From: Anaerolineaceae bacterium
Lineage (GTDB): Bacteria; Chloroflexota; Anaerolineae; Anaerolineales; UBA11657
Direction: 5' to 3'
Assembly (NCBI GenBank): GCA_003569365.1
Contig: BGOS01000021.1
Location: 1-51,497 of the forward strand
Length of the DNA stretch: 51,497 nt
The first letter of the stretch is position 1. Each line of letters begins with the position of its first letter. Positions 1 to 15,672 of the stretch are shown here, piece after piece. The notes below the pieces were generated by a model. That model saw nothing but the letters and a program-made list of their open reading frames with translations. It was not told the DNA's origin and ran no database searches. A program made the translations under genes and the position numbers.

Positions 1-1337
1 GGAAAGACCGGTGTTGCCAACTGTGCAATCACTTCCCCGGCCCGCACCGATTGGCCGGGCTTTACCAGTACGCTGGCCTGATGCCAGTAAGCTGTGAAGA
101 CACCCCAGCCATGGTCAAGGATCGTGGCGCCACCGCGGATTTGAAGCTGTTCCGCAAGCACGACCACACCATCGGCTGGTGCCCGGATGGGAGTGCCGGC
201 AGGCGCACCAAAATCAATGCCACCGTGAAACGTGCGAAACGGACTGCCGTTATAGCTGCGGCGCAGTCCGAATTGAGTGGTGATGTATTGTGATGAGATG
301 GGCTGCACAAACTCGGCGGTCCACAGGCGCGTGGCCGTGAAGGCTTTAGCCACAGCTTGAATGCGCGCTACTTCGCCATCTCCAACCTGCGGATCGTTTA
401 GCAGCGCGGCCTTCTCGTCTTGCAGCAATATCAGCTGTTGCGCAAAATGCGCATTGGAGACGCGCACGCGCAACTCCACACTCACAGCCGCGCCGCGCGG
501 CGGCTGAGCGCGCACCCGCAACGCATACACGCCCGGCTCAGTGATGGCGTTCACGCCATGCAGCGCAATCTGTCCCGTGCCCAGCTGCGAAAAATGCAAT
601 GGCTCGCCATCAAACTCACCGCTCAGCACCGCAGCGCTGGCAAGCGTAAGCACTACCGCCAGTGGCTCGCCTTGTGCGGGATGATCTGGATAAACAGTTA
701 TTGATTGGAACGGCAGCGGCAATGAGTTCTCCGCCGATGCTGGCAGCTGCAGCTGGAGCCCCGGGGCGGCTGCCAGCGATGACAGCTGATTGGTCAAGGC
801 GAGTTGCTGCAGGGTGAGACCCGCCCGCGCAGCCAGCAACGCGAGCGTCTCGCCGGGCTGCACCACTACCGCATGCTGTGCGGACAGCACTGGCTGCTCA
901 TCATCGCCAACTAGAAATAAAAACGACTGCCCAAGAAACAGCGCGGCCGGATTTACAATGCGGTTGAGGCGCACAAGTGTTGGCTGGTCTGAGCGCAGAC
1001 GGTACAAGAGGTTTGGCAGGCTGTCGCCGGCAGCCAACTGATGCGTGGCCAGCACTCCACGCATGCCGGCAAAGCCGGGCACAAGCAGGCGCTGGCCCAC
1101 GTCCAATACCCCGGGATCCGTAATTACGTTTGCTTTTTGCAATGCCTCCACACTAGTGCCCAGCAGCTGCGCAATTGTGTAAAGGCTTTCGCCAGCCTGC
1201 ACAATATAGACTGGACCGTCCTCTTCAGCTGCATATGCATTGCGTGAAGGCACCAGCACCAGTGCCGCAACTGCAAGGGTAAAGCAGTGCAAGCGCCAGA
1301 GTAGTGTGCTGCGTGGAACACACCGGGCAACGCGCAT
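1..1337 (-). CDS. LysM-domain M23 family metallopeptidase (partial)
   Basis: Secreted cell-wall hydrolase that probably cleaves peptidoglycan cross-bridges. From the ATG at 1337 the protein has a signal peptide (residues 1-36, cleavage after NAYA), then three LysM peptidoglycan-binding repeats (about 43-87, 96-143 and 155-200), each with the usual GESL/GDSL/GETL opening. A beta-rich linker follows, then an M23/LytM domain. The zinc-binding HGGID motif is at residues 371-375 and YWH at about 419; the final HxH motif lies beyond the window edge. Near base 21 the frame appears to slip: one added base would restore the family VGNTGLS motif, so a one-base deletion is suspected. It diverges from the lipoprotein hydrolase at 1520. 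Confidence 0.9.
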   Translation of the reverse strand, partial: MRVARCVPRSTLLWRLHCFTLAVAALVLVPSRNAYAAEEDGPVYIVQAGESLYTIAQLLGTSVEALQKANVITDPGVLDVGQRLLVPGFAGMRGVLATHQLAAGDSLPNLLYRLRSDQPTLVRLNRIVNPAALFLGQSFLFLVGDDEQPVLSAQHAVVVQPGETLALLAARAGLTLQQLALTNQLSSLAAAPGLQLQLPASAENSLPLPFQSITVYPDHPAQGEPLAVVLTLASAAVLSGEFDGEPLHFSQLGTGQIALHGVNAITEPGVYALRVRAQPPRGAAVSVELRVRVSNAHFAQQLILLQDEKAALLNDPQVGDGEVARIQAVAKAFTATRLWTAEFVQPISSQYITTQFGLRRSYNGSPFRTFHGGIDFGAPAGTPIRAPADGVVVLAEQLQIRGGATILDHGWGVFTAYWHQASVLVKPGQSVRAGEVIAQLATPVF

Positions 1338-1398
1338 AAAAGTTGATGCGCAAGTCCGGGAGCAGGCTAGCCAATTGCTTATCATTGGGTTTTGATTC

Positions 1399-1422
1399 GC
1401 GCTCTGCGGCAGGGCAGAGCGC
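1399..1422. repeat. Inverted repeat in divergent intergenic region
   Basis: A perfect 9-bp inverted repeat (GCGCTCTGC at 1399-1407, GCAGAGCGC at 1414-1422) with a 6-base loop lies between the divergent M23 peptidase and hydrolase genes. No T-run follows on either strand, so it is not an intrinsic terminator. It could be an operator or a 5' leader hairpin. Confidence 0.5.
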
Positions 1423-1519
1423 AGGTGATTAATCCGGCAGTTTACGGGAAAACAGGCAGTGCATCCGGCTTCGCGTGCGCTTCAGTGTGCATGCAGGAGC
1501 CGGCAATATAATCGCCACA

Positions 1520-2596
1520 ATGCCAATTCGACGCACGTGCATTATAGCGACACTGGCCGGATTGCTCGTGGCGTGCGGCGCTGCGGCACGCCCTGCGGTT
1601 GTGGCGCGCACCATTCCAACTGCGCTTCCCTCACGCACAGCAACGGCCACGCAAACGGCCACGCCCCCTGCAACTCCGGAACCAACTGCAACCCCGCACC
1701 CGCTTTCAATTGCCGCGCTGCGCCAGGGCGAGTATCCGGGCAGCCGGCTGGCTCTGGAACAGCCATTGGAAGCCGGCATCAACTATGCGCGCTCCATCGT
1801 GTCTTATCAATCCGAGGGACTTAAAATCTACGCGCTGCTGACTGTTCCATTTGGGGAGCGACCCGCAGCGGGATGGCCGGTGATTGTTTTTAATCACGGC
1901 TATATTGCGCCGGCCGAGTACCGCACCACTGAACGCTATGTAAATTACATGGGGGCCTTGTCACGGAGCGGTTACATTGTGCTGCGGCCGGACTACCGCG
2001 GGCACGGCAGCTCTGAAGGCGTGGCGCGTGGCGCTTACGGTGCACCGGATTATGTGGTGGATGTGTTGAATGCGGTTGGCGCAATCAAACAATATTCCGA
2101 CGCTGACCCGGCCCGCATTGGAATGTGGGGCCACTCGATGGGTGGCTACATCACATTGCGGGTGATGGTGGCCACGCGCGACATCAAAGCCGGCGTGATC
2201 TGGGCTGGTGTGGTGGCGTCCTACCCGGATATGGTTGCCAACTGGAGCCGGCTTACCGGCGGTGCAGGAGTGGCAACTCCTGTGGCTGGCTGGGGCACCC
2301 GCTGGACCCGGTCGCTGAGCAAAACTTTTGGCAGCCCGCAATCCAGCCCGAAGTTTTGGAGCGATATCTCCGCCAATAGTTTTCTGGCTGACATCTCCGG
2401 TCCGCTGCAGCTGCATCACGGCAGTATTGATCAAGTTGTGCCGGCAATTTTTTCCGAAACTCTTTATCAGCAGCTGCGCACTGCCGGCCAGCCGGCAGAG
2501 TTGTATCTGTACCCGCAAGGCGACCACAATCTCCGCTTGAATTTTGAGGAGGCAATGCAGCGCACGCTGCGGTTTTTTGAGGAGCACCTAAAATGA
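1520..2596 (+). CDS. Alpha/beta hydrolase lipoprotein
   Basis: Probably an exported, lipid-anchored esterase or peptidase of the dienelactone hydrolase/prolyl oligopeptidase type; the substrate cannot be read from sequence. The chosen ATG at 1520 gives 358 aa beginning with a lipoprotein signal whose lipobox is LLVAC (Cys19). A Thr/Pro-rich linker (about 30-62) precedes the hydrolase fold. The nucleophile elbow is GHSMGG (Ser206), with likely acid Asp304 (GSIDQVV) and His336 (GDHNL). A longer in-frame start at 1475 would bury the signal peptide. A TATAAT box at 1507-1512 lies only 8 bases upstream of the ATG. The last 103 bp recur inverted at 28947-29049. Confidence 0.88.
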   Translation: MPIRRTCIIATLAGLLVACGAAARPAVVARTIPTALPSRTATATQTATPPATPEPTATPHPLSIAALRQGEYPGSRLALEQPLEAGINYARSIVSYQSEGLKIYALLTVPFGERPAAGWPVIVFNHGYIAPAEYRTTERYVNYMGALSRSGYIVLRPDYRGHGSSEGVARGAYGAPDYVVDVLNAVGAIKQYSDADPARIGMWGHSMGGYITLRVMVATRDIKAGVIWAGVVASYPDMVANWSRLTGGAGVATPVAGWGTRWTRSLSKTFGSPQSSPKFWSDISANSFLADISGPLQLHHGSIDQVVPAIFSETLYQQLRTAGQPAELYLYPQGDHNLRLNFEEAMQRTLRFFEEHLK

Positions 2597-2723
2597 CGGT
2601 GGGCAGTTTGCTGCCGGGAGTGGTCTGCCTTAGCAGCCAGCTCATTTGCCTATTTCGGGGCAATATTCGTTATTATGCGTCCGCGGCCTGATTTACTGTG
2701 GGCTGGTCGTGCGACATCCCTGC

Positions 2724-2753
2724 TTGACAATCTCGCTGGCGGTCTTGTACAAT
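2724..2753 (+). promoter_or_regulatory. Sigma-70 type promoter of the ilv-leu operon
   Basis: TTGACA (2724-2729) and TACAAT (2748-2753) are separated by 18 bases, a near-consensus housekeeping promoter. Transcription should start near 2760, only about six bases before the leader-peptide ATG at 2766. Confidence 0.85.
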
Positions 2754-2765
2754 TAGCAATATAAC

Positions 2766-2867
2766 ATGTTGATCAATTTGTTGGTACTCGTCCCCGTAAT
2801 TTTGCTTCTCGTAATTGAGAAGCCTTTGCTGTTTGGGACGGCAGCGGTTCGGTCGACGCGCAGATAA
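2766..2867 (+). CDS. Branched-chain amino acid leader peptide (attenuator)
   Basis: A 33-codon frame whose residues 2-22 hold 16 Leu, Ile or Val; residues 5-17 read LLVLVPVILLLVI. Codons such as GTA, CTC, CTT and GTC are common here although the neighbouring genes favour GTG and CTG. It lies directly after a strong promoter and before an intrinsic terminator upstream of the ilv genes, the arrangement of leader peptides that sense charged Leu/Ile/Val-tRNA by ribosome stalling, as in the enterobacterial ilv and leu operons. No Shine-Dalgarno sequence fits between the predicted transcription start and the ATG, so translation may be leaderless. A small membrane peptide is an alternative reading but explains the context less well. 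Confidence 0.8.
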   Translation: MLINLLVLVPVILLLVIEKPLLFGTAAVRSTRR

Positions 2868-2936
2868 CGACCAGCCACTAACCTGCAGGAAGATTGCAGA
2901 AGCCGCCCTGAACAAGGGGCGGCTTCTTTGTTTATT
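2818..2936 (+). terminator. Intrinsic terminator/antiterminator (attenuator)
   Basis: The terminator is a perfect 11-bp stem, AGAAGCCGCCC (2898-2908) with GGGCGGCTTCT (2917-2927), an 8-base loop and a T-rich tail to 2936. Bases 2835-2842 (GGGACGGC) can pair with 2902-2908 through seven G-C pairs and one bulged A, which would disrupt the terminator. Bases 2818-2824 (AGAAGCC) duplicate the start of the terminator 5' arm and sit just after the Leu/Ile/Val codons, so they can act as the protector segment. This gives a four-segment attenuator. The terminator is directly visible; the alternative pairing was worked out by hand. Confidence 0.82.
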
Positions 2937-2979
2937 GCCAGTGCGGCAGCCAGTGTGCGGTCGCAAAGGAGAAATCGAA

Positions 2980-3381
2980 ATGCACACAGCTCAGGATGTT
3001 ATGAGCAGCCCTTTGATAATGACCGACGCGCAGGCCACTGTGGCCGAGGCCGTGGGTGTAATGCGCCGGCACCATGTATCCAGCCTTTTGGTGCGGCCCA
3101 CTGGCAGCGCCAAGCACTACGGCATTATCACCAAGCGCGATGTGGTGACAAAGCTTGTGGCGCACAATACCGACCTGCACGGCGTGGCCGTGGCGGATGT
3201 GATGACTGCGCCGCTCACCACAGTGGCGCCGGATTGCACACTGGTGGAATGCTCGCGCATAATGAGCGAGAAGAACATCCGGCGCCTGCCCGTGTTTGTT
3301 GGCAGTACGCCGGTTGGAATTGTGAGTGACACGGATATATTTGCCGCAGTGGAAGAAAGCGGCTGGGGCAACCCGGCCTAG
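2980..3381 (+). CDS. CBS domain protein
   Basis: A 133-aa stand-alone protein made of two CBS motifs (about 1-60 and 65-130), which together form a Bateman module of the kind that binds adenine nucleotides or S-adenosylmethionine. The ATG at 2980 follows an AAAGGAGAAA ribosome-binding site and starts MHTAQDVM, the usual opening of such proteins; an upstream in-frame start would overlap the attenuator. It is the first gene after the attenuator and 31 bases before ilvB, so it should be co-expressed with branched-chain synthesis. It might link the operon to energy state, but no partner can be named from sequence. Confidence 0.85.
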   Translation: MHTAQDVMSSPLIMTDAQATVAEAVGVMRRHHVSSLLVRPTGSAKHYGIITKRDVVTKLVAHNTDLHGVAVADVMTAPLTTVAPDCTLVECSRIMSEKNIRRLPVFVGSTPVGIVSDTDIFAAVEESGWGNPA

Positions 3382-3412: not shown

Positions 3413-5152
3413 ATGACAAAACTTACCGGTGCACAAATGATATGGGAATGCTTGACGCTTGAGGGCGTCGAGGTTGTATTCGGGTATCCAGGCGGCGCCA
3501 TCCTGCCCACTTACGATGCCATGCTTGGCTACAAGATCCACCATGTGCTGGTGCGCCATGAGCAGGGCGCCACACACATGGCGGATGGCTATGCGCGGGC
3601 ATCCGGCAAAGTGGGGGTTGCGATTGCCACTTCCGGGCCAGGTGCCACAAACATGGTGACGGGCATTGCTACGGCAATGATGGACTCGGTGCCAATTGTT
3701 TGCATTACCGGCCAGGTGGGCAGCAAAGCCATCGGTTCAGATGCGTTTCAAGAAACAGATGTGACTGGCGTCACGCTGCCCATCACCAAGCACAACTATC
3801 TTGTAACGCGCACTGAGGACATTCCGCGCGCCATCAAAGAGGCTTTCTTCATTGCCCGCAGCGGGCGCCAGGGGCCGGTACTGGTGGACATCACCAAGGA
3901 TGCACAGCAGGGCAGCGCCGAATTTGTGTGGGAGCACGGCCCCGTGCGCCTGCCCGGCTACCGGCCGGACCTGCGCACACTGCCCGGCGAACTTGAGCGC
4001 GCGCTGCAGTTGATCAACAATGCCGAGCGGCCGCTGATCCTTGCCGGCCACGGCATCATCTCTGCTGGTGCCCGTGCGCAAGTGCTGGAGTTTGCGGAGC
4101 GCGCACAAGTGCCGATAGCCACGACGCTGCTGGGCATTGGCGGTATTCCCGCCAGCCATGGCCTCAACCTTGGCATGATGGGCATGCACGGCGAGGCCTA
4201 CGTCAACAGCGCCATTCAGCAGGCGGATTTGCTGCTTGCATTTGGCATGCGCTTTGATGACCGGGTGACCGGCAACCTGAAAACGTATGCCGTCAACGCG
4301 CGCAAGATTCACATTGACATTGACTCCTCTGAGCTGAACAAAAATGTGCGCGTGGATGTGGGCTTGGTGGGCGACCTGCGGGATGTGCTGCAGGAGCTGT
4401 TGCCGGGTGTGCAATCCGCAGACCACAGTGCGTGGCTGGATCATATTGACTCTATGAAAGGCGATGTGGCAGTGCGCGATATCCAGTCGCTGCCGGATAC
4501 CGGCCACCTCTATGCCGCGCATGTCATCAACGACATCTGGCGCCTCACCAACGGCAATGCGATTGTGGTCACAGATGTGGGCCAGCATCAAATGTGGGAG
4601 GCGCAGTATTACAAGCACGACCATGAGCGCACGTTGATCACCTCGGGCGGGCTGGGCACTATGGGCTTTGCGCTGCCGGCTGCAATCGGGGCAAAGTTTG
4701 CCTGCCCGGATCGCGAGGTTTGGGTGGTGGCGGGGGATGGCGGTTTTCAGATGACGATGGCCGAGCTGGCTACCATCAAGCAGGAAAAGATCAAGCTCAA
4801 CATCGCCATCATCAACAACTTCTATCTGGGCATGGTGCGCCAATGGCAGGAGTTCTTTTATGAAAAGCGTTATGCGGCCACGCCGCTGTTGGGCCCGGAC
4901 TTTGTGAAGCTGGCTGAAGCCTTTGGGTTGCGCGGCATGCGAATTAAGCAGCGCGCCGAGCTGCAGGGGCTGGTGGAAGAGGCGCGCGCAGATTCCGGCA
5001 CAGTCGTCATCGACTTTCAAGTGGAACAGGAGGACAGCGTGTTCCCAATGGTTCCGGCTGGCGCCGACTTGGACAAGATGATCCGGCGCCCGGCCCGGGA
5101 TGTGATGATTGAAACCGGAGCGGACCCCGATGAGTGGGAGCTGGGTGCGTAA
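3413..5152 (+). CDS. ilvB: Acetolactate synthase large subunit
   Basis: Thiamine-diphosphate enzyme joining two pyruvates to 2-acetolactate, or pyruvate and 2-oxobutyrate to 2-aceto-2-hydroxybutyrate: the first common step to Val, Leu and Ile. It is 579 aa, normal for the family. FGYPGGAILP and catalytic Glu50 in VRHEQG mark the N-terminal domain; GDGGFQM near residue 441 begins the metal/ThDP motif, followed by NNFYLGMVRQWQ. The ATG at 3413 follows an AAGGGGAAG ribosome-binding site. The regulatory subunit gene lies 30 bases downstream. The acetohydroxyacid synthase form, rather than a catabolic one, is inferred from the pairing with ilvN. Confidence 0.97.
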   Translation: MTKLTGAQMIWECLTLEGVEVVFGYPGGAILPTYDAMLGYKIHHVLVRHEQGATHMADGYARASGKVGVAIATSGPGATNMVTGIATAMMDSVPIVCITGQVGSKAIGSDAFQETDVTGVTLPITKHNYLVTRTEDIPRAIKEAFFIARSGRQGPVLVDITKDAQQGSAEFVWEHGPVRLPGYRPDLRTLPGELERALQLINNAERPLILAGHGIISAGARAQVLEFAERAQVPIATTLLGIGGIPASHGLNLGMMGMHGEAYVNSAIQQADLLLAFGMRFDDRVTGNLKTYAVNARKIHIDIDSSELNKNVRVDVGLVGDLRDVLQELLPGVQSADHSAWLDHIDSMKGDVAVRDIQSLPDTGHLYAAHVINDIWRLTNGNAIVVTDVGQHQMWEAQYYKHDHERTLITSGGLGTMGFALPAAIGAKFACPDREVWVVAGDGGFQMTMAELATIKQEKIKLNIAIINNFYLGMVRQWQEFFYEKRYAATPLLGPDFVKLAEAFGLRGMRIKQRAELQGLVEEARADSGTVVIDFQVEQEDSVFPMVPAGADLDKMIRRPARDVMIETGADPDEWELGA

Positions 5153-5182
5153 CCGGCCGGCTGGCGGCCCAATGGAGGAAAG

Positions 5183-5749
5183 ATGGCACACACTCTAATT
5201 GCCTACGTGGAAGACAAGCCGGGCGTGCTCAACCGCGTGGCGTCTTTGTTTCGGCGGCGCGCGTTTAATATTGTGTCGCTCACTGTGGGGCGCACCGAGC
5301 AAGCGGGTGTCTCACGCATGACGATTGTGGTGGACACGGATGGGCCTGGCGCGCGCCGCGCAGAGGCCAACCTTTACAAGCTGGTGAACGTGCTGCGCGT
5401 TGACGATGTGACCAACAAGCCCGCCGTGGTGCGTGAGCTGGTGCTGGTGAAGGTGGGCGTCACCGCGGAGCAGCGCACCGCCGTGTTGCAGCTGGTAAAT
5501 GTTTTTCGTGCGCGTGTGGTGGACATCTCGGCTGAAGCCATGATCACTGAGATCACCGGCTCACAGGATAAGGTGGAGAGTTTCATTGAAACAATGCGCG
5601 CCTTCCACATAATTTCTGTGGCGCGCACGGGTTTGATTGCAATGGTGCGGGGTGGCAGCAAGATCAGCGCCAATCCACCGCTGGTGGCCGCGCAGCTGCC
5701 CGAAGATGGCGCGGCGGAAGGCACATCCGAACTGTCAATGTCTGTATAA
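5183..5749 (+). CDS. ilvN: Acetolactate synthase small (regulatory) subunit
   Basis: Regulatory subunit that activates IlvB and gives feedback inhibition, typically by valine. It is 188 aa, with an N-terminal ACT domain (about 3-77, [19 protein letters not shown]) and a C-terminal ACT-like domain (about 85-165, [10 protein letters not shown]). A GGAGGAAAG ribosome-binding site precedes the ATG. It sits 30 bases after ilvB and about 80 bases before ilvC. A TATAAT sequence overlaps its stop codon (5745-5750), but with no good -35 partner an internal promoter is uncertain. The tail after residue 165 is Ala/Pro/Glu-rich and probably disordered. Confidence 0.95.
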
Positions 5750-5831
5750 TTCTCAGGCGCTTGTGCTTTATAAACACCAGGCGCAAAAATTCAATCGCGG
5801 ACACGTTACGCAAAAATTAAACGGAGTAATC

Positions 5832-6845
5832 ATGGCAGTAATTTTTTATGACAAGGATGCAAAGCCTGCGCTCATCAAGGCCGCCAAGGTTGCGGTTGTG
5901 GGCTATGGTTCGCAAGGGCATGCACACTCGCAAAATTTGCGTGACAACGGCGTGGAGGTGCGGGTGGGGCTGCATGCGGGCAGCAAGAGCCGCGCCAAGG
6001 CAGAGGCCGATGGCTTTACGGTCATGCCGGTGGCAGATGCCGTCAAGTGGGCAGACGTTATCATGCTGCTGGCGCCTGACACCACGCAGCCAGCCATCTA
6101 CAGCGAACATATTGCGCCGCACCTCAAGCGGGGCAAGACGCTCATGTTCGGGCACGGCTTCAATATTCGCTACGGCACCATCGTGCCACCGAAAGATATT
6201 GATGTAAGCATGGTGGCGCCGAAGGCGCCGGGGCACCGCGTGCGCGAGACGTTTATGGAGGGCGGCTGCACGCCGGCGCTGCTGGCTGTGCATCAGGACG
6301 CGTCCGGCAAGGCGCACGACAATGCGGTGTCTTATGCGTGGGGGCTGGGCGTTACGCGGGCGGGCCTGCTGCAAACCACGTTCACCGAAGAGACCGAGAC
6401 TGACTTGTTTGGCGAGCAGAGCATCTTGTGCGGTGGCGTGAGCGCGCTGGTGAAAGCCGGGTTTGAGACGCTGGTGAAGGCCGGCTATCAGCCCGAGGTC
6501 GCTTATTTTGAATGCATGCACGAGCTGAAGCTGATTGTGGACTTGATGTACCGCGGCGGACTCAACTACATGCGCTACTCTGTGTCTGACACGGCTGAGC
6601 ACGGCGACTACGTAGCCGGCCCGCGCATCGTTACCGAGGAAACTTATGGTGCGATGGCAGGAATCCTCAAGGACATTCAGGATGGCACGTACGCCCGCAA
6701 CTGGATTGATGAGAACAAGAACGGGCGGCCTACATTCACTGACACGCGCAAGCGCGAGCAGACGCACATGATTGAAGAAGTGGGTGCGCGCCTGCGCGAA
6801 ATGATGCCGTTCTTAAACCCGGTAACCATCAAGCCCGGCGAGTAA
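5832..6845 (+). CDS. ilvC: Ketol-acid reductoisomerase
   Basis: Converts acetolactate (or acetohydroxybutyrate) to the dihydroxy acid by Mg-dependent alkyl migration and NAD(P)H reduction. It is 337 aa, the short class I form. The Rossmann motif [15 protein letters not shown] lies near residues 24-38, and the cofactor loop [12 protein letters not shown] carries Ser and Arg/Lys residues typical of NADPH preference. Family motifs [15 protein letters not shown] and [10 protein letters not shown] are present, the latter holding metal-binding acids. The ATG at 5832 follows CGGAG; an upstream in-frame start at 5637 would overlap ilvN and is rejected. Confidence 0.96.
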
Positions 6846-6900
6846 GCTGCAAGTTTGCGGGCGCCCGGCTGGCGCAGGCCCCGCGGACATCAACAACGCC

Positions 6901-8559
6901 ATGAGCAACTACGTCCGCATCTTTGACACCACGCTGCGCGATGGTGAGCAGTCGCCGGGGGCAACGCTCACCAGCAGCGAGAAGGTGGAGATTGCGCGCC
7001 AGCTGGCACGGCTGGGCGTGGACATAATCGAAGCTGGCTTTCCGGCCGCTTCACCGGACGATCTGGCGGGAGTGCGGCTGGTGGCCGAAGAAGTGGGCCG
7101 CGAAGAGAATGTGCGCAAATGGGCGCCGGAGGGCGTGCGCCCGCCCATCATTTGCGGGCTGGCGCGCGCATCTGCTGCAGACATTGATAGGGCTTGGGAA
7201 GCAGTGCGCACGGCTGACCGCCCGCGCATCCACACCTTTCTTGCCACGTCCGAGATTCACATGAAGCACAAGCTGCGCTTGGATCCGGAGGAAGTGGTGG
7301 AGCGCACTCGCGAGATGGTGGCCTACGCTCGCTCGCTCTGCGCAGACGTGGAGTTCAGTCCCGAAGATGCAGGCCGCAGCAATCCAGACTTTTTGTACGT
7401 TGTGCTGGCTGAGGCGATTAAGGCGGGCGCGACCACGCTAAATATTCCGGACACTGTGGGTTACACGCTGCCCGACGAGTTTGGCGGACTGATTGCGGGC
7501 ATCATCCGCAACACACCCGGCATTGCAGGCGTCACTGTGTCTGTGCACTGCCATGACGACCTCGGGTTGGCAACTGCCAACACGCTCGCGGGAATTGCTG
7601 CGGGTGCGCGCCAGGCAGAAGTAACGCTGAACGGCATTGGCGAGCGCGCAGGCAACACCTCGCTGGAAGAGGTGGTGATGGCGCTGCACACGCGCCGGCC
7701 GATATTCAAGCTGGATTGCGGTGTGCGCACCGAGCAGATCACCAGCAGCAGCCGCATGGTGAGCCAGTACACCGGCATCGTTGTGCAGCCCAACAAGGCA
7801 ATTGTGGGTGCCAACGCATTTGCGCATGAAGCCGGCATTCATCAGGACGGAATGCTCAAGCACAACCTCACGTACGAGATTATGCAGCCCGAGACGGTGG
7901 GCCTGTCGCAGTCCCGGCTGGTGCTGGGCAAACATTCCGGGCGCGCCGCATTGCGTGCACGCCTGCTGGAGATGGGCTACGAGCTGACTGACGAAAATCT
8001 GGGCGAGGTCTTCAACCGTTTCAAGCGCGTCGCCGACAAAAAGAAGAATGTCACTGAGGCTGACCTGCAGGCGCTGGTGAAAGACGAGCTGTACCAGCCG
8101 CGCGAAATCTTTCATTTGGAAGACATGCAGGTGGTGTGCGGCACACTGGGCATGCCAACCGCCACGGTGCGCATGCGCGGCCCGGACGGCGCCAGCGTGG
8201 TGCGCGCTGCAATGGGCACCGGCCCGGTGGACGCCTGTTACAAGGCCATTGATGAAATCATGCTGCTGCCCAACAAACTGCTGGAGTACAACCTGCACGC
8301 CGTCACGGAGGGCATCGATGCGCTTGGCGAAGTTTCTGTGCGCATTCAGGTGGACGCGCGCGACGTGTCTGCACCGCAGCGCCTCTCGGCGCAGCATGAG
8401 CAGCTGGGGCATCGCATCTTTGGCGGGCATGGCGCCAGCACGGACACGATTGTGGCGGGCGCGCGGGCTTACGTAAACGCAATCAACAAGGCTATGGCGG
8501 CGCTGGGCATGCATAGCGACCAGCAAGCGCCGGATGCCGCGCGCACGCCCACAGCCTGA
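6901..8559 (+). CDS. leuA: 2-isopropylmalate synthase
   Basis: Condenses acetyl-CoA with 2-oxoisovalerate, the first committed step to leucine. At 552 aa it is the full-length type with a C-terminal regulatory domain. The TIM-barrel start [11 protein letters not shown] (near 10-20) is the family signature, [15 protein letters not shown] carries the divalent-metal histidines, and [18 protein letters not shown] is diagnostic of LeuA. The region after about 395 fits the LeuA allosteric domain where leucine binds. It differs from the related cimA at 10639, which reads TTLRDGTQREG. The gene follows ilvC by 55 bases and precedes leuC by 22. Confidence 0.96.
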
Positions 8560-8581
8560 AGCCAGCCTGCAATAAAAAATA

Positions 8582-9991
8582 ATGAGCAGCACTCCTAAAA
8601 CTCTTTTCGAAAAAATCTGGGAGCAGCATGTGGTGGCGCAGCAACCCAACTCGCCGGCCGTGCTGTACATCGACTTGCATCTTGTGCATGAAGTCACATC
8701 GCCGCAGGCATTTACCGGCCTGCGCCAGCGCGGGCTGCGCGTGCGCCGGCCGGACAAGACCGTGGCAACCATGGACCACTCCATTCCTACCACGCCGCTT
8801 TCGGTGCCAATCGCGGATGCGCAAGCTGCGGCCCAGCTGCAAATGCTTGCGGACAACACGAAAGAGTTTGGCATAGCGTTGCATGGCATGGACTCGCCGA
8901 TGCGCGGAATTGTGCATGTGATCGGGCCAGAGTTGGGGCTCACGCAGCCGGGCATGACGATTGTGTGCGGCGACAGCCACACTTCCACGCACGGTGCGTT
9001 TGGGGCGCTGGCGTTTGGCATTGGCACCAGCGAGGTGGAGCACGTGCTCGCCAGCCAGTGCCTGCTGCAAACGCGCCCGAAAACTTTTGCGGTGCGCGTG
9101 GAAGGGCGGCTGGGCACGGGCGTCTCTGCCAAAGACATCATCCTTGCGTTGATTGCACGCATTGGCATTGGCGGCGGCGGCGGCCATGTGTTCGAGTACA
9201 GCGGCTCTGCCATTCGCGGCCTCACAATGGAAGAGCGCATGACCATTTGCAACATGTCTATCGAGGGCGGTGCGCGTGCCGGCATGATTGCGCCGGACGA
9301 TGTCACATTTGAATATCTTGCGGGCCGCCGGCATGTGCCGCAGGGCGCAGCGTGGGAGCGGGCGCTGCAGCGCTGGCGCGCATTGCCCAGTGATGCCGCA
9401 GCGCAGTTCGACAAATCCATCACGATTGCTGCAAATGAGCTCGAGCCGATGGTAACCTACGGCACCAACCCCGGCATGGGCGTGCCCATTTCCGGCCGCA
9501 TCCCGGATCCGGCGCAAATCAGCAACGCGGCTGCGCGCGCGAGCATTGAGCAGGCTTTGGAATATATGGGACTGCAGCCGGGCCAGGCATTGCTGGGGCA
9601 GCCGATAGATGTTGTCTTTGTGGGCAGCTGCACCAACGGGCGCATCTCTGACCTGCGGCTGGCTGCCCAAGTGATGCGTGGCCGGCGTGTTGCCAGCGGC
9701 GTGCGCATGCTGGTGGTGCCGGGCTCGCAAGAAGTAAAGCGCCAGGCTGAGCAGGAAGGCCTCGACCGAGTCTTCCGCGAGAGCGGCGCTGAGTGGCGCG
9801 AAGCCGGCTGCTCCATGTGCATTGCAATGAACGGCGACCAGCTGCGTCCCGGGCAGCGCGCCGTCAGCACCAGCAACCGCAACTTTGAAGGCCGGCAGGG
9901 CAAGGGTGGGCGCACGTTCCTCGCTTCGCCGCTGACTGCGGCTGCATCCGCCGTCAGTGGACACATAGCAGACGTGCGCACGCTGCTCTAA
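8582..9991 (+). CDS. leuC: 3-isopropylmalate dehydratase large subunit
   Basis: Aconitase-family subunit holding the [4Fe-4S] cluster; isomerises 2-isopropylmalate to 3-isopropylmalate with LeuD, and in the citramalate route also acts on citramalate. It is 469 aa. The cluster cysteines are visible in SCTNGRI (near 352) and GCSMCIAMN (near 410 and 413). Other family motifs are DHSIPTT and [20 protein letters not shown]. It follows leuA by 22 bases and precedes leuD by 8, consistent with translational coupling of the two subunits. Confidence 0.96.
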
Positions 9992-9999
9992 ACCCAACG

Positions 10000-10590
10000 A
10001 TGGCTCAATTCACCACACTCACATCCCGCGTCATTCCGCTGCCGCGGATTAATATTGACACGGACCAAATTATTCCAGCGCGCTACTTGAAGGTGACCGA
10101 CAAAGCCGGCTTGGGCGATGCACTGTTTGCGGACTGGCGCTACGCCGCGGACGGCACGCCGATTGCAGATTTTGTGCTCAACCAGCCGCAGCACCGGGGT
10201 GCGCAGATCCTGCTCGCCGGCGACAACTTTGGCTGCGGTTCCTCGCGCGAGCACGCGCCGTGGGCGCTCACCGCGTGGGGCATTCGCGCTGTCATCACCA
10301 CTGATGTTGCCGACATTTTTCGCAGCAATGCGCTCAAGAACGGATTGCTGCCGATTGTGGTGTCCGGCGCAGCGCATGCCAAGCTGCTGGAGTTTGTGGA
10401 AGAGCTGCCGCAGTGCGAGCTGCAGATTGACCTTGCCACGCAGCAGCTGACACTGCCGGACGGCAGCCAGGTGCAGTTTCCAATTGATGAATTCTCCAAG
10501 ACCTGCCTGCTGCAGGGCGTGGACCAGCTGGGTTACATCCTCAACTATAGCGAGCGCATCACGGCTTACGAAGCCACGCTAGCCGGCTGA
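10000..10590 (+). CDS. leuD: 3-isopropylmalate dehydratase small subunit
   Basis: Swivelling-domain partner of LeuC in the isopropylmalate isomerase. At 196 aa it matches the long bacterial LeuD form. Visible motifs include the opening [22 protein letters not shown] and the substrate-recognition stretch [17 protein letters not shown]. It starts 8 bases after leuC. With cimA downstream, the same LeuCD pair probably serves both leucine and isoleucine synthesis. Confidence 0.96.
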
Positions 10591-10638
10591 GTGCGCCGCT
10601 GCGGGCTGCGCGGCCATGGTGCCCCCAACCCAACCCTG

Positions 10639-12192
10639 ATGACTGCCATCCAAATTTACGACACCACGCTGCGCGATGGCACGCAGCGCGAGGGCGTGTC
10701 ACTTTCGTGCGCCGACAAGCTGCGCATTGCGCAGCGCCTGGACGAGCTGGGGGTTGCGTACATTGAAGGCGGCTGGCCGGGCTCCAACCCAAAGGATGTG
10801 GAGTTCTTTCAGCGGGCCGGCCAGCTGCAGCTGCGCCATGCGCGCATCGCGGCATTTGGCGCCACCTGCCACGCGGGCAGCCAGCCCGCAGCGGATGCCA
10901 ACCTGCGCGCACTCCTCGATGCGCACACGCCGGTGTGCACCGTGGTTGGCAAGTCCTGGCTGCTGCATGTAACCGAAGTGCTGCAGACCACTGCCGGCGA
11001 GAACTTGCGCATGATCACCGAAAGCCTGGCCTATCTGGCAAGCCAGGGGCGCGAGGTGATTTATGATGCCGAGCACTGGTTTGACGGCTACCGCGCCGAT
11101 GCGCAATACGCTCTGCAGACACTGCGGGCCGCGCAGCAGGGCGGCGCCACAGTCATCGTGCTGTGTGACACCAATGGCGGCACGCTGCCGCACGAGGTGG
11201 ATGCCGTGGTGCGGGCAGTGCGCGCGCAGCTGGATGTGCCGCTGGGCATTCACACCCACAACGACAGCGAGTGCGCCGTAGCCAACACGCTGGTGGCGGT
11301 GCAGGCTGGCTGCCAGCATGTGCAGGGCACCATCAATGGCTATGGCGAGCGCTGTGGCAACGCCAACTTGTGCAGCATCATTCCGGATCTGCAGCTCAAG
11401 CTGGGCTACAGCTGCCTGCCTGCGCCGCAGCTTGCGCGTTTGGCAGACACCGCGGCATTTGTGGCAGAGCTGGCAAATCTGGCGCCCGACGAGCATGCAG
11501 CATTCGTGGGCAAGTCCGCGTTTGCGCACAAGGGCGGCATTCATGTGGCGGCCATGCGCCGCAATGCGGAAAGCTACCAGCACATTGATCCGGCGCTGGT
11601 TGGCAATGCCACACGCACGGTTGTATCCGAGCTTTCCGGCCGCGCCAACTTGCTGGCGATGATTGAGGAACACGGGTTGGCAGCAAGCAGCGCGGATGTG
11701 AGCACTGTGCTGGCCGAGATCAAGCAGCTTGAGGCACAGGGCTTCTCGTTTGAGGCGGCTGAGGCCTCGGTGGCGCTGCGCTTGCGCCGCCGCGACCGCA
11801 ACTACCGCGCACCGTTTGAGCTGGTGGACTTTGTGTGCACGGTGGAACACCGCCAGGGCCGCGGCTTGGTGGCCGAGGCCAGCGTAAAGGTGAGCGTGGC
11901 GGGCGGCGAGTACCACACCGTGGCCGATGGCAACGGCCCGGTGAACGCGCTCAGCCGCGCGCTGCGCAAGGCACTCGCGCCGATGTATCCGCGCATCGAG
12001 GAAATTCATCTCTCCGATTACAAGGTGCGCATTTTGGATGAAGCCAACGGCACAGCTGCAACCACGCGCGTGCTGATTGACCTGTACAATGGCACGCGGC
12101 GCTGGAGCACAGTCGGTGCCAGCACCAATATTATTGAGGCCAGCTGGCAGGCACTCGCCGACGGCATCGAATACGGATTAACCCTCGCATGA
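10639..12192 (+). CDS. cimA: (R)-citramalate synthase
   Basis: Condenses pyruvate with acetyl-CoA to citramalate, giving 2-oxobutyrate for isoleucine without threonine deaminase. It is 517 aa from the ATG at 10639; a GTG 48 bases upstream is less likely because family members begin at IQIYDTTLRDG. The variant motif TTLRDGTQREGVSLS, the sequence YIEGGWPGSNPKD and the GIHTHNDSECAVANT metal site separate this family from LeuA. The C-terminal part (after about 390) is a LeuA-type dimer/regulatory domain. Its stop overlaps the next gene by 4 bases (ATGA). The CimA assignment over LeuA rests on these motifs and on a separate leuA in the same operon. Confidence 0.93.
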   Translation: MTAIQIYDTTLRDGTQREGVSLSCADKLRIAQRLDELGVAYIEGGWPGSNPKDVEFFQRAGQLQLRHARIAAFGATCHAGSQPAADANLRALLDAHTPVCTVVGKSWLLHVTEVLQTTAGENLRMITESLAYLASQGREVIYDAEHWFDGYRADAQYALQTLRAAQQGGATVIVLCDTNGGTLPHEVDAVVRAVRAQLDVPLGIHTHNDSECAVANTLVAVQAGCQHVQGTINGYGERCGNANLCSIIPDLQLKLGYSCLPAPQLARLADTAAFVAELANLAPDEHAAFVGKSAFAHKGGIHVAAMRRNAESYQHIDPALVGNATRTVVSELSGRANLLAMIEEHGLAASSADVSTVLAEIKQLEAQGFSFEAAEASVALRLRRRDRNYRAPFELVDFVCTVEHRQGRGLVAEASVKVSVAGGEYHTVADGNGPVNALSRALRKALAPMYPRIEEIHLSDYKVRILDEANGTAATTRVLIDLYNGTRRWSTVGASTNIIEASWQALADGIEYGLTLA

Positions 12193-13238
12193 ATATCGCA
12201 GTTATCACCGGCGATCCGCGCAAGCCAGACCCGCGCCGCATCGAAGGCAAATACAACTCGGATGACCACGAGGACCTGCTTCACCTGCACACAGCAATGG
12301 TGGAACTGGAGGCCCGGCGCGGTTACAAGGTGCGCTACCTGGACAACCACGACACATTGCTAAACGATTTGCAAAAGCTAAAGGCTGCGCACAGCATTGA
12401 TCTTGCGGTTAATTTCTGCGACGAGGGCTTCGATAACCGCAACTCCACCGATGTGTGCATTCCGGCGCTGCTGGAAATTTTGCAGCTGCCCTTCACCGGC
12501 TCTGGCTCGCACACCATCTCGCGCACCGGGGACAAAAACGGCGTGCGCGGCATGCTGCAGGCGCTCAACGTTTCCATACCGCGCTTTCATTACGTGCAGC
12601 CCGGCGATAACACGCTTGCGCTGCCATTCCCATTTCCGGCGCTGGTGAAGCCAAACAGCATTGGCGGCAGCGTTGGCATTACCGCAGACTGCGTGGCGCA
12701 CGATGCGCAGCAACTGCAGCATGCGGTGGCGATTACCCGGGAGCGCTTTGGCGCTGCCGTGCCAGTGCCCGTGGAGGAGTTCCTCACCGGCCGCGAGTTC
12801 AGCATGGGCATGCTGGGCAACCCGGATGACGGCTACACCGTGCTGCCATTGCTGGAGGTGGACTTTAGTGTGCTGCCAGAAGGCACGCAGCCGCTGTGCG
12901 GCTGGGAGTCAAAGTGGGACTACAACTCCGAATATGCAAACTTGTTTGGTTGTGCCAAGCAGGCGCACCTTGAGCCGGCAATGATGCAGCAAATGGTAGA
13001 TGATTGCGTGCGCATGGCGCGCCATATGCAAATTCACGACTATCTGCGCGTGGACTGGCGCCTGGACGTTGATGGCCAGCCACGCATGCTGGACGTAAAC
13101 CCCAACAGCAGCTGGTGCTGGAACACTTTTATGGCGGAGATGGCCGAGTGGGACGGTATTTTCTATGCAGATCTGCTGGATTTGATTTTGCAATCGGCGC
13201 TCAAGCGCTACAAACTGGTTCCAGCCAATGTCAGTTGA
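12189..13238 (+). CDS. ATP-grasp ligase, D-alanine-D-alanine ligase-like
   Basis: A 349-aa ATP-grasp enzyme expected to join a carboxylate to an amine or amino acid through an acyl-phosphate. Visible features are PFTGSGSHTISRTGDKNGVR (about 98-117, matching the Ddl substrate/ATP region), FPALVKPNSIGGSVGI (nucleotide-binding lysine), PVEEFLTGREFSMG, and the Mg-binding end LDVNPNSSW. The usual Ddl HGxxGEDG start is absent (here VNFCDEGFDN), so a true D-Ala-D-Ala ligase is doubtful. It overlaps cimA by 4 bases and the next gene by 11, so it is translationally coupled inside the Leu/Ile operon. Its substrate is unknown. Confidence 0.85.
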   Translation: MNIAVITGDPRKPDPRRIEGKYNSDDHEDLLHLHTAMVELEARRGYKVRYLDNHDTLLNDLQKLKAAHSIDLAVNFCDEGFDNRNSTDVCIPALLEILQLPFTGSGSHTISRTGDKNGVRGMLQALNVSIPRFHYVQPGDNTLALPFPFPALVKPNSIGGSVGITADCVAHDAQQLQHAVAITRERFGAAVPVPVEEFLTGREFSMGMLGNPDDGYTVLPLLEVDFSVLPEGTQPLCGWESKWDYNSEYANLFGCAKQAHLEPAMMQQMVDDCVRMARHMQIHDYLRVDWRLDVDGQPRMLDVNPNSSWCWNTFMAEMAEWDGIFYADLLDLILQSALKRYKLVPANVS

Positions 13239-13722
13239 AGCGCGCCTGCAGCCGGCCGCGCAAAAAGTTGCGGACGCCGCTGCGGCGCTGGGGCTCACAA
13301 TTGCAGTGCGCGAGTTTGGTGAAAGCACGCGCACCGCGGCGGAAGCGGCCACAGCGGTGGGCTGTACGCTGGGCCAGATTGTGAAGAGCCTGGTGTTCGT
13401 GGCAGCCGGGCAGCCAGTGCTGGCGCTGGTATCCGGCAGCAACCAGCTGGCCATGCCCAAGCTGGCAGCGCTATGCGGCACATCCGGCAAGCAGGTGCAG
13501 CGCGCTGATGCCGACGCGGTGCGCGCCGCAACCGGCTTTGCAGTGGGTGGCGTGCCGCCCTTTGGGCATGCCAACGCACTGCGCGTCTTCATTGATGAAG
13601 ACCTCGGGCAGTACCCCACCGTTTGGGCAGCCGCCGGCACGCCGCATGCCGTTTTTGAAATCGAGTTCGCTGCGCTGCAGCGCGCCACCGGTGGCTTGTG
13701 TGCAAATCTTAAATCTGAATGA
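13228..13722 (+). CDS. YbaK/EbsC-family aminoacyl-tRNA deacylase
   Basis: A 164-aa stand-alone editing-type domain that would hydrolyse mischarged tRNA, most likely Cys-tRNA(Pro) or a related error. The family lysine appears in GQIVKSLVFVA (near 49-59), followed by GSNQLAMPKLA and the conserved GGVPPFGHA and VFIDEDLGQYPTVWAAAGTP stretches. The start overlaps the ATP-grasp gene by 11 bases. In an amino-acid biosynthetic operon it could protect proteome fidelity when pools shift, but that is inference; the family also travels widely as an independent gene. Confidence 0.88.
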   Translation: MSVEARLQPAAQKVADAAAALGLTIAVREFGESTRTAAEAATAVGCTLGQIVKSLVFVAAGQPVLALVSGSNQLAMPKLAALCGTSGKQVQRADADAVRAATGFAVGGVPPFGHANALRVFIDEDLGQYPTVWAAAGTPHAVFEIEFAALQRATGGLCANLKSE

Positions 13723-13758
13723 AACGGGCGAGTGCACCCTGCCAAGGTGAATAACTAA

Positions 13759-14832
13759 ATGGATGCGAAGATTATTGTGCTGCCGGGTGACGGCATTGGG
13801 CCGGAAGTGACGGCTGCGGCGCAGCTGGTGCTGCAGGAAGTGAGCACGCGCTTCGGGCATAACCTGCAGCTGAGCGAGCGCTTGATGGGTGGCTGCGCGA
13901 TTGACCGCAGCGGCCGGCCGATCACCGAAGAAACGCTGGCGGACTGTGCGGCATCTGATGCGGTGCTGCTGGGCGCGGTGGGCGGCCCCAAGTGGGACGA
14001 CCCGCGTGCTCAAGTGCGCCCGGAGCAGGGCCTGCTGGCACTGCGCAAAGGCCTGGGCGTGTTTGCAAACCTGCGCCCGGTGCGGCCGCATCCGCAGCTG
14101 CTCAAGGCGTCGCCGCTGAAGCGCGCGCTGCTGCGCGGCGTGGATTTGCTGGTGGTGCGCGAGCTGACCGGCGGCATTTATTTTGGCGAGCGCGGCCGCG
14201 GCCTGCAGCCGGACGGGCGCGAACGCGCCTTTGACACGATGGTGTACTGGGACTATGAAGTTGAGCGCATTGTGCAGCTGGCCTTCAAGCTGGCGGCCGG
14301 CCGGCGCAGCAAAGTCACCTCTGTGGACAAGGCCAACATTTTGGACACCTCGCGCATGTGGCGGGCTGTTGCCACCAAAGTCGGCGCACAGCATCCGCAC
14401 ATTGCGCTGGACCATCAGCTGGTGGACACTGCCGCCATGCGCCTTGTGGCGCAGCCGGCAGCATTTGATGTGGTGGTCACGGAGAATATGTTTGGCGACA
14501 TCCTCACTGATGAGGCCGCCGTGCTGACCGGTTCGATGGGCAACCTGCCGTCCGCATCGCTCAGCGGCAACGGCCCCGGCCTCTACGAGCCCATTCACGG
14601 CTCGGCCCCGGATATTGCCGGCAAGGGTATTGCAAATCCGGTCGGCGCAATTCTTTCTGCGGCACTGCTGCTGCGCCACTCGCTGCAGCTGGAGCGTGAA
14701 GCCGTGGCGGTTGAGAAAGCAGTTGATGGTGCGTTGCGCGCCGGCTGCCGCACGGCGGACCTGCAGCCGGTGCAGGCGCTTTCCACAATGCAGATGGCAG
14801 CTGCCATCGTGCAGCGCCTGCCCAAACGCTAA
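13759..14832 (+). CDS. leuB: 3-isopropylmalate dehydrogenase
   Basis: NAD-dependent oxidative decarboxylase making 2-oxoisocaproate in leucine synthesis; in the citramalate route it can also process 3-methylmalate. It is 357 aa. Visible motifs: [17 protein letters not shown] (N-term), [12 protein letters not shown], the [13 protein letters not shown] loop, [16 protein letters not shown] with the catalytic Lys, [19 protein letters not shown] with metal-binding Asp residues, and [18 protein letters not shown]. It lies 36 bases after the deacylase and 6 before pheA. Confidence 0.96.
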
Positions 14833-14838
14833 CCGGCC

Positions 14839-15672
14839 ATGATCAAGGTTGCTTTTCAGGGCGAGCGCGGCGCGTACTCCGAGGCTGCGGCAATTGCCTA
14901 CTTTGGCGCGCAGCTGGAGCCGGTGGCGTGCACCACGTTTGACGATGTGTTTGACCGCGTGCTGTCCGGCGATTGCGAGAACGGCATTGTGCCGATTGAG
15001 AACACGCTGGCGGGCAGCATTCACCGCAACTATGATTTGTTGCAGCGCCATCCGCTCGCAATCATCGGCGAAAAAATCTTTCGTGTGCGCCACTGCCTGG
15101 TGGCGCATCCCGGGGTTGTGCTGGCGGACATCCGCAAAATAATTTCGCACCCGCAAGCGCTGGCGCAGTGCGAGGGCTACATCACGCGCCTCGGCGTGGC
15201 GCACGAGCCGTGGTATGACACGGCTGGCGCAGTCAAATCATTAAGCGAGGGCGGGCAGCGCGACCACGCTGCAATTGCATCGCGGCGCGCCGCAGAGGTG
15301 TACCAGATGCACATTCTGGCAGCGGACATTGAAGACGATGATGCAAACTACACGCGCTTCCTGGTGCTGGCGCGTGACGGGCAGCGCCCCGGCGGGTCCG
15401 CGGTCAAAACATCGATTGTGTTTTCACTGCCGCGTGGCGGCACCACACCCGGCGCGTTATTCCGGGCGCTGGCGGTGTTTGCCTTGCGCGATATCAACCT
15501 GAACAAGATCGAGTCGCGGCCGATTGCCGGGCAGACTTTTCAGTATGTCTTCTACTTGGATTTTGACGGCAGCCATGACTCTGAGCCGTGCGCGCGCGCG
15601 CTGGCGCACTTGCGCGAAATGACGCCGGACTTGCGCGTGCTCGGCAGTTACCCGCGCGACGAAAACTGGTAA
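14839..15672 (+). CDS. pheA: Prephenate dehydratase
   Basis: Makes phenylpyruvate from prephenate for phenylalanine. A 277-aa monofunctional enzyme: the PDT domain (about 2-180) opens VAFQGERGAYSEAAA and carries the IENTLAGSIHRNYDLL and DDANYTRFLVLAR motifs, and a C-terminal ACT domain (about 190-272) holds the Phe-sensing ESRPIAGQTFQYVFYLDFDG. No chorismate mutase domain is fused. It is the last gene of the operon, 6 bases after leuB, which links Phe synthesis to Leu/Ile/Val control. It converges on the tRNA-Arg gene. Confidence 0.95.
   Translation: MIKVAFQGERGAYSEAAAIAYFGAQLEPVACTTFDDVFDRVLSGDCENGIVPIENTLAGSIHRNYDLLQRHPLAIIGEKIFRVRHCLVAHPGVVLADIRKIISHPQALAQCEGYITRLGVAHEPWYDTAGAVKSLSEGGQRDHAAIASRRAAEVYQMHILAADIEDDDANYTRFLVLARDGQRPGGSAVKTSIVFSLPRGGTTPGALFRALAVFALRDINLNKIESRPIAGQTFQYVFYLDFDGSHDSEPCARALAHLREMTPDLRVLGSYPRDENW

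Follow-up and report, generated by a model that had tools for sequence, protein, structure and literature searches.

The stretch of DNA analyzed here (the window, 51,497 nucleotides) carries, directly in front of a set of branched-chain amino-acid genes, a leader that is very probably a ribosome-mediated transcription attenuator, by which the supply of charged Leu, Ile and Val tRNAs would set the expression of these genes. Homologous leaders, consisting of a short ORF, a hairpin within the ORF and a terminator, were read in more than 80 loci from the Anaerolineales, other classes of the Chloroflexota and the Opitutales (Verrucomicrobiota). This widespread family of attenuators is new, while the kind to which it belongs, ribosome-mediated attenuation, is already known.

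The promoter proposed in the first-pass annotation (forward strand, 2724-2753) is well formed, with TTGACA and TACAAT separated by 18 nt and 11 of 12 matches to the consensus, and is present in both other species of the genus; transcription probably starts near 2760. The leader ORF (forward strand, 2766-2867) contains 33 codons, including 17 for Leu, Ile or Val, and encodes the peptide MLINLLVLVPVILLLVIEKPLLFGTAAVRSTRR*, in which these residues account for 16 of positions 2-22. The richness of this frame in Leu, Ile and Val, likewise pointed out at the outset, exceeds that of shuffled windows, in which ORFs with at least 10/14 Leu/Ile/Val numbered 0.07 on average and none reached 11/14. On both strands of the 51-kb window, it is the sole ATG-started ORF of 15-60 amino acids at the former threshold. 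Codons for the amino acids of the regulated pathway are a characteristic of the leaders of ribosome-mediated attenuators, and here the homologous ORFs are in register across families.

The ATG of the leader lies 12 nt past the -10 box and lacks a Shine-Dalgarno sequence. The distance from the -10 box to the start codon is 12-14 nt in the window's genus and mostly 19-23 nt in family f12, and a Shine-Dalgarno-like tetramer within the 20 nt before the start was detected in only 10 of 79 leaders. Short-UTR leaders like these are known among actinobacterial uORFs. In the f12 leaders (e.g., L217, L218, L212 and L231), reading from the -10 box onward, the start of transcription is marked by the conserved sequence TATAATCGGGCGAAAT. 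Of the five genomes searched, four contain it a single time, at the leader, and one lacks it altogether. This sequence could represent a G+C-rich discriminator or a conserved 5' end of the transcript.

As in other ribosome-mediated attenuators, an intrinsic terminator is located between the leader ORF and the first gene (forward strand, 2898-2936), at the very place where it had originally been annotated. Its stem (2898-2908 with 2917-2927, enclosing the loop 2909-2916) covaries and comprises 11 Watson-Crick pairs and one wobble, followed by TTGTTTATT, with a T-rich tail. The antiterminator segment, TGTTTGGGACGGC (forward strand, 2830-2842), is found within the leader ORF, just past the Leu/Ile/Val run, and pairs with 2902-2914 through 12 pairs and one A-C mismatch at A2838. 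The pairing of 2835-2842 with 2902-2908 that had been put forward earlier involves the segments as described (GGGACGGC and GCCGCCC), but the helix is longer and includes the terminator loop. Strand 2902-2914 is common to both structures, such that the antiterminator and terminator are mutually exclusive.

Since the fitting of the covariance model and its alignments relied on the hairpin and the terminator but not on the antiterminator helix, the counts for this helix are independent of it. For this helix, 92.5% of the cells were paired versus 30-51% for slid versions, and both sides had changed in seven of nine pairs; in a wider set, 87.6% were paired and three of five measures exceeded every shuffle. 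Native antiterminator and terminator partners bind, on average, 4.3 kcal/mol better than partners swapped between sequences, in a comparison that does not control for relatedness. The antiterminator was altered to match changes in the terminator arm in L220, L224, L240, L247, L249, L251, L253, L271, L284 and L289. The parts of the leader and their conservation are thus evident from sequence and comparison, as is the coevolution of the antiterminator with the terminator, the two having changed in step in many lineages. The stop codon of distant members is positioned directly 3' of the antiterminator and the peptides end in LGGGS, LGG or AVG, whereby a ribosome finishing translation would cover the antiterminator. 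The leader stop of the window is located 22 nt beyond it. The spacer between antiterminator and terminator (2843-2897) is almost invariant within the genus and freely variable between genera; its invariance within the genus is a point that the attenuation model leaves unexplained.

The dependence of these structures on the position of the ribosome is predicted by folding, for which the ribosome footprint was masked codon by codon and the RNA was folded only up to the terminator loop. In the window, the probability of the antiterminator was near 1 when codons 2-17 occupied the A site and about 0 for codons 21-31; in these calculations, a stall at the control codons leaves the antiterminator free to form and progress of the ribosome blocks it. 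Masked and unmasked folding had been suggested in the first-pass annotation as a check, and the antiterminator indeed forms before the 3' arm of the terminator whenever the ribosome is on the Leu/Ile/Val run. The switch point was at or near the end of this run in most of 27 leaders, a set in which L247 and L249 give no meaningful values, their helix being in another register. A ribosome at the stop codon blocked the antiterminator only in part (probability 0.48). When the full-length RNA was folded, the terminator was the more stable structure at nearly all ribosome positions; since the terminator prevails in stability once its 3' arm has been made, the mechanism would depend on timing. In the absence of a ribosome, folding yields the antiterminator in the window, and an untranslated leader would accordingly be expected to read through; of the 25 leaders that could be measured, 15 do not form it under this condition.

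According to the proposed mechanism, transcription would begin a few bases 5' of the leader ATG, with the ribosome trailing the polymerase. A shortage of charged Leu-, Ile- or Val-tRNA would cause the ribosome to stall within codons 2-17, leaving segment 2830-2842 free to pair with the emerging 5' arm and loop of the terminator (2902-2914); the terminator could then not form, and the genes would be transcribed. If all three tRNAs were plentiful, the ribosome would advance over codons 21-31 and mask 2830-2842 while the terminator is being made, and transcription would stop. We infer the translation of the leader, the timing, the response to starvation and the resulting regulation in the cell.

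The hairpin within the ORF (forward strand, 2804-2823; arms 2804-2810 and 2817-2823) covaries across the phylum, with observed values that were never reached by shuffles. Segment 2818-2824, initially described as a repeat of the 5' arm of the terminator, does read AGAAGCC but belongs to the 3' arm of this separate, conserved hairpin. Its pairing with the 3' arm of the terminator was seen only in the window's genus, and it was rejected as a general antiterminator because it is not kept outside the genus. The hairpin does not overlap the antiterminator (2830-2842) and is therefore not a protector; perhaps it serves as a polymerase pause site, although this is a guess. Its strong covariation and the near invariance of the whole leader within the genus would also be expected of a ligand- or protein-binding, riboswitch-like attenuator, in which the hairpin would be the binding site and the ORF would be secondary. 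Such an arrangement is exceedingly improbable: a larger conserved fold is absent, no Rfam family was matched at gathering score, and the ORF is open and rich in Leu, Ile and Val almost without exception among the members, the antiterminator following the run immediately.

Ribosome-mediated attenuation, the reading preferred here, was examined further in the context of related genomes. In two further species of the genus, the leader shows about 2 differences per 159 bases, as opposed to differences at 25-35% of the fourfold sites of ilvB, suggesting that the bases themselves, and not the peptide alone, are under constraint. Wherever the upstream sequence was usable in genomes of the same family, ilvB is preceded by an ORF rich in Leu, Ile and Val and by a terminator of the GCCGCC type. 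The logic of ribosome stalling proposed in the first-pass annotation is thereby supported, in that the orthologous upstream regions keep both peptide and terminator, and folding favors the alternative pairing before the 3' arm of the terminator is made.

When 400 genomes of the order were searched at E<=0.05, the first covariance model, derived from four leaders with loops of the same length, matched 182, the weak matches including false ones. This model also matched other classes of the phylum, and a model from 55 leaders extended this reach. Matches in L255, L266 and L295 and a second match in L230 were set aside as false, and matches by DNA similarity outside the genus were mostly unrelated terminators. 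Among the model-found loci whose ORFs were read, 52 of 53, 19 of 20 and 14 of 15 contained an in-register Leu/Ile/Val-rich ORF. The downstream gene product was IlvD or IlvB in nearly all of the loci checked, and not clearly so in family f54 (L285, L286, L287 and L298) and in one member of f29.

The peptides of family f12 are well conserved and close to MNxIFSLSLIVVLLAVLIIKDLFxVRMATVRVK, with differences located mostly at third codon positions. Conservation of this kind, together with a hydrophobic Leu/Ile/Val run of about 20 residues that resembles a membrane helix, could indicate that the ORF encodes a small membrane protein, that the terminator merely ends its short transcript and that the operon has its own promoter, with no attenuation. 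This explanation is nevertheless very improbable, as the segment within the ORF coevolves with the arm and loop of the terminator, the terminator is never missing, and the element is found at branched-chain genes rather than moving freely. Moreover, interchange among Leu, Ile and Val makes up about half of all replacements in which any of the three is involved.

The enterobacterial ilvGMEDA and leuABCD attenuators possess a leader that comprises some 30 codons, many of them for the regulated amino acids, as well as a terminator and an alternative antiterminator. The attenuator of the window is similar in the size and composition of its leader, its terminator, its antiterminator and its sensing logic. 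In contrast to the enterobacterial systems, its antiterminator lies inside the ORF and reaches the terminator loop, its leader start lacks a Shine-Dalgarno sequence, and no protector hairpin sequestering the antiterminator is found in the window. Hence, the enterobacterial ilv/leu logic first invoked for this locus is upheld as regards attenuation, but its full layout, with a protector hairpin overlapping the antiterminator, is not.

Actinobacterial ilvB leaders, including the Corynebacterium ilvBNC uORF and the ilvB-II motif (PMC1262725, PMC10272879, PMC11857589), belong to a different phylum and are likened here by layout, i.e., a Leu/Ile/Val-rich uORF, a terminator and an antiterminator before ilvB. 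This resemblance is not proof, since altered leader codons in Streptomyces coelicolor were without effect on ilvB (PMC1262725). Leucine-rich leader peptides before branched-chain genes are also a feature of the Firmicutes attenuators of Listeria (PMC5864092) and Staphylococcus (PMC5794164), likened here by description. According to a 2010 survey, leader-peptide attenuation had been known only from Proteobacteria and Actinobacteria, to which the survey added Firmicutes (PMC2965389). Text searches found no paper describing leader-peptide attenuation in Chloroflexota; a comparative study of attenuation by Lopatovskaya et al. (2010) may list some members.

Searches of Rfam at gathering score (leader families, T-box and riboswitches) detected only tRNAs in the window, the matches to the leader being at chance level, and six leader peptides had no match at E<=1 among the leader-peptide families of NCBIfam. 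The family is contained in neither Rfam nor NCBIfam. It combines clear three-way covariation with a conserved peptide and spans many Anaerolineae, other Chloroflexota classes and the Opitutales, and its covariance model is ready for use in annotation. The supply of branched-chain amino acids would thus be tied to coupled transcription and translation in mostly uncultivated bacteria, some of which are abundant in deep lakes.

The window has a G+C content of 61% and derives from a MAG of 2.6 Mb in 30 contigs, the closest named relative of which is the Chloroflexi MAG ZSMay80m-chloro-G1 (IlvB 98% identical). The first gene behind the leader encodes a two-CBS-domain protein (forward strand, 2980-3381). 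It is followed on the same strand (3413-15672) by the collinear genes ilvB (3413-5149), ilvN, ilvC, leuA, leuC, leuD, a second HMGL/LeuA-type gene, an ATP-grasp gene, a YbaK-type (editing domain) gene, leuB and pheA. Branched-chain genes are therefore present behind the leader, as annotated at first, but the collinear genes from CBS to pheA number 12 and not 10; their collinearity suggests that they are co-transcribed. Among the loci read, a CBS gene between leader and ilvB was observed only in the window's genus. The operon lacks ilvD, and both ilvD-type genes are located elsewhere in the genome; no recognizable leader was found ahead of either, and a weak C20 match was rejected as an ilvD leader, since it consists of a gene end and a terminator. 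A second leader copy (G000:C26:54436-54540) was similarly rejected as a paralogue; it is the window's own locus, repeated as a low-quality overlap where a contig ends. The end of contig C26 (L002) is a copy of the start of the window (1-2852) with many one-base indels, and in the assembly this contig and that of the window are adjacent or overlapping.

The IlvB of the window's genus groups with those of f4, f11 and the Opitutales, and not with those of the other genera of its own family (L113-L115 versus L112 and L116-L120). Unlike IlvB, the leader peptide is similar to those found in the family to which the genus belongs; the leader may be the original resident, with the structural genes behind it having been exchanged.

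Ten Opitutales loci encode an IlvB that is 74-76% identical to that of the window, and in most of them a model-found leader is located about 1.9 kb upstream of ilvB. Their leader peptides differ (e.g., MNLSVALVALITVVLALLASDPNTHGRLAKATSS), and GGGCGGC and the GCCGCCC terminator are kept. In the IlvB tree, the Opitutales are nested within the Chloroflexota, beside two f11 genomes (support 100/97), for which the simplest reading would be transfer of the operon together with its leader into the Opitutales. A broader proposal is offered tentatively, at rather less than even likelihood: these leaders would constitute phylum-wide, simplified two-state attenuators, without a Shine-Dalgarno sequence, with a very short 5' UTR and with an antiterminator within the ORF that reaches the terminator loop. 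In members like that of the window, the moving ribosome alone would prevent antitermination and an untranslated leader would read through, and the cassette would have moved with the ilv genes from the Chloroflexota to the Opitutales. In Acidobacteriota loci with a similar IlvB, the leader was looked for and was absent. In a Myxococcales MAG (L104), an ORF rich in Leu, Ile and Val lies about 2 kb ahead of ilvB and has a strong terminator behind it, an arrangement that is possibly an independent attenuator.
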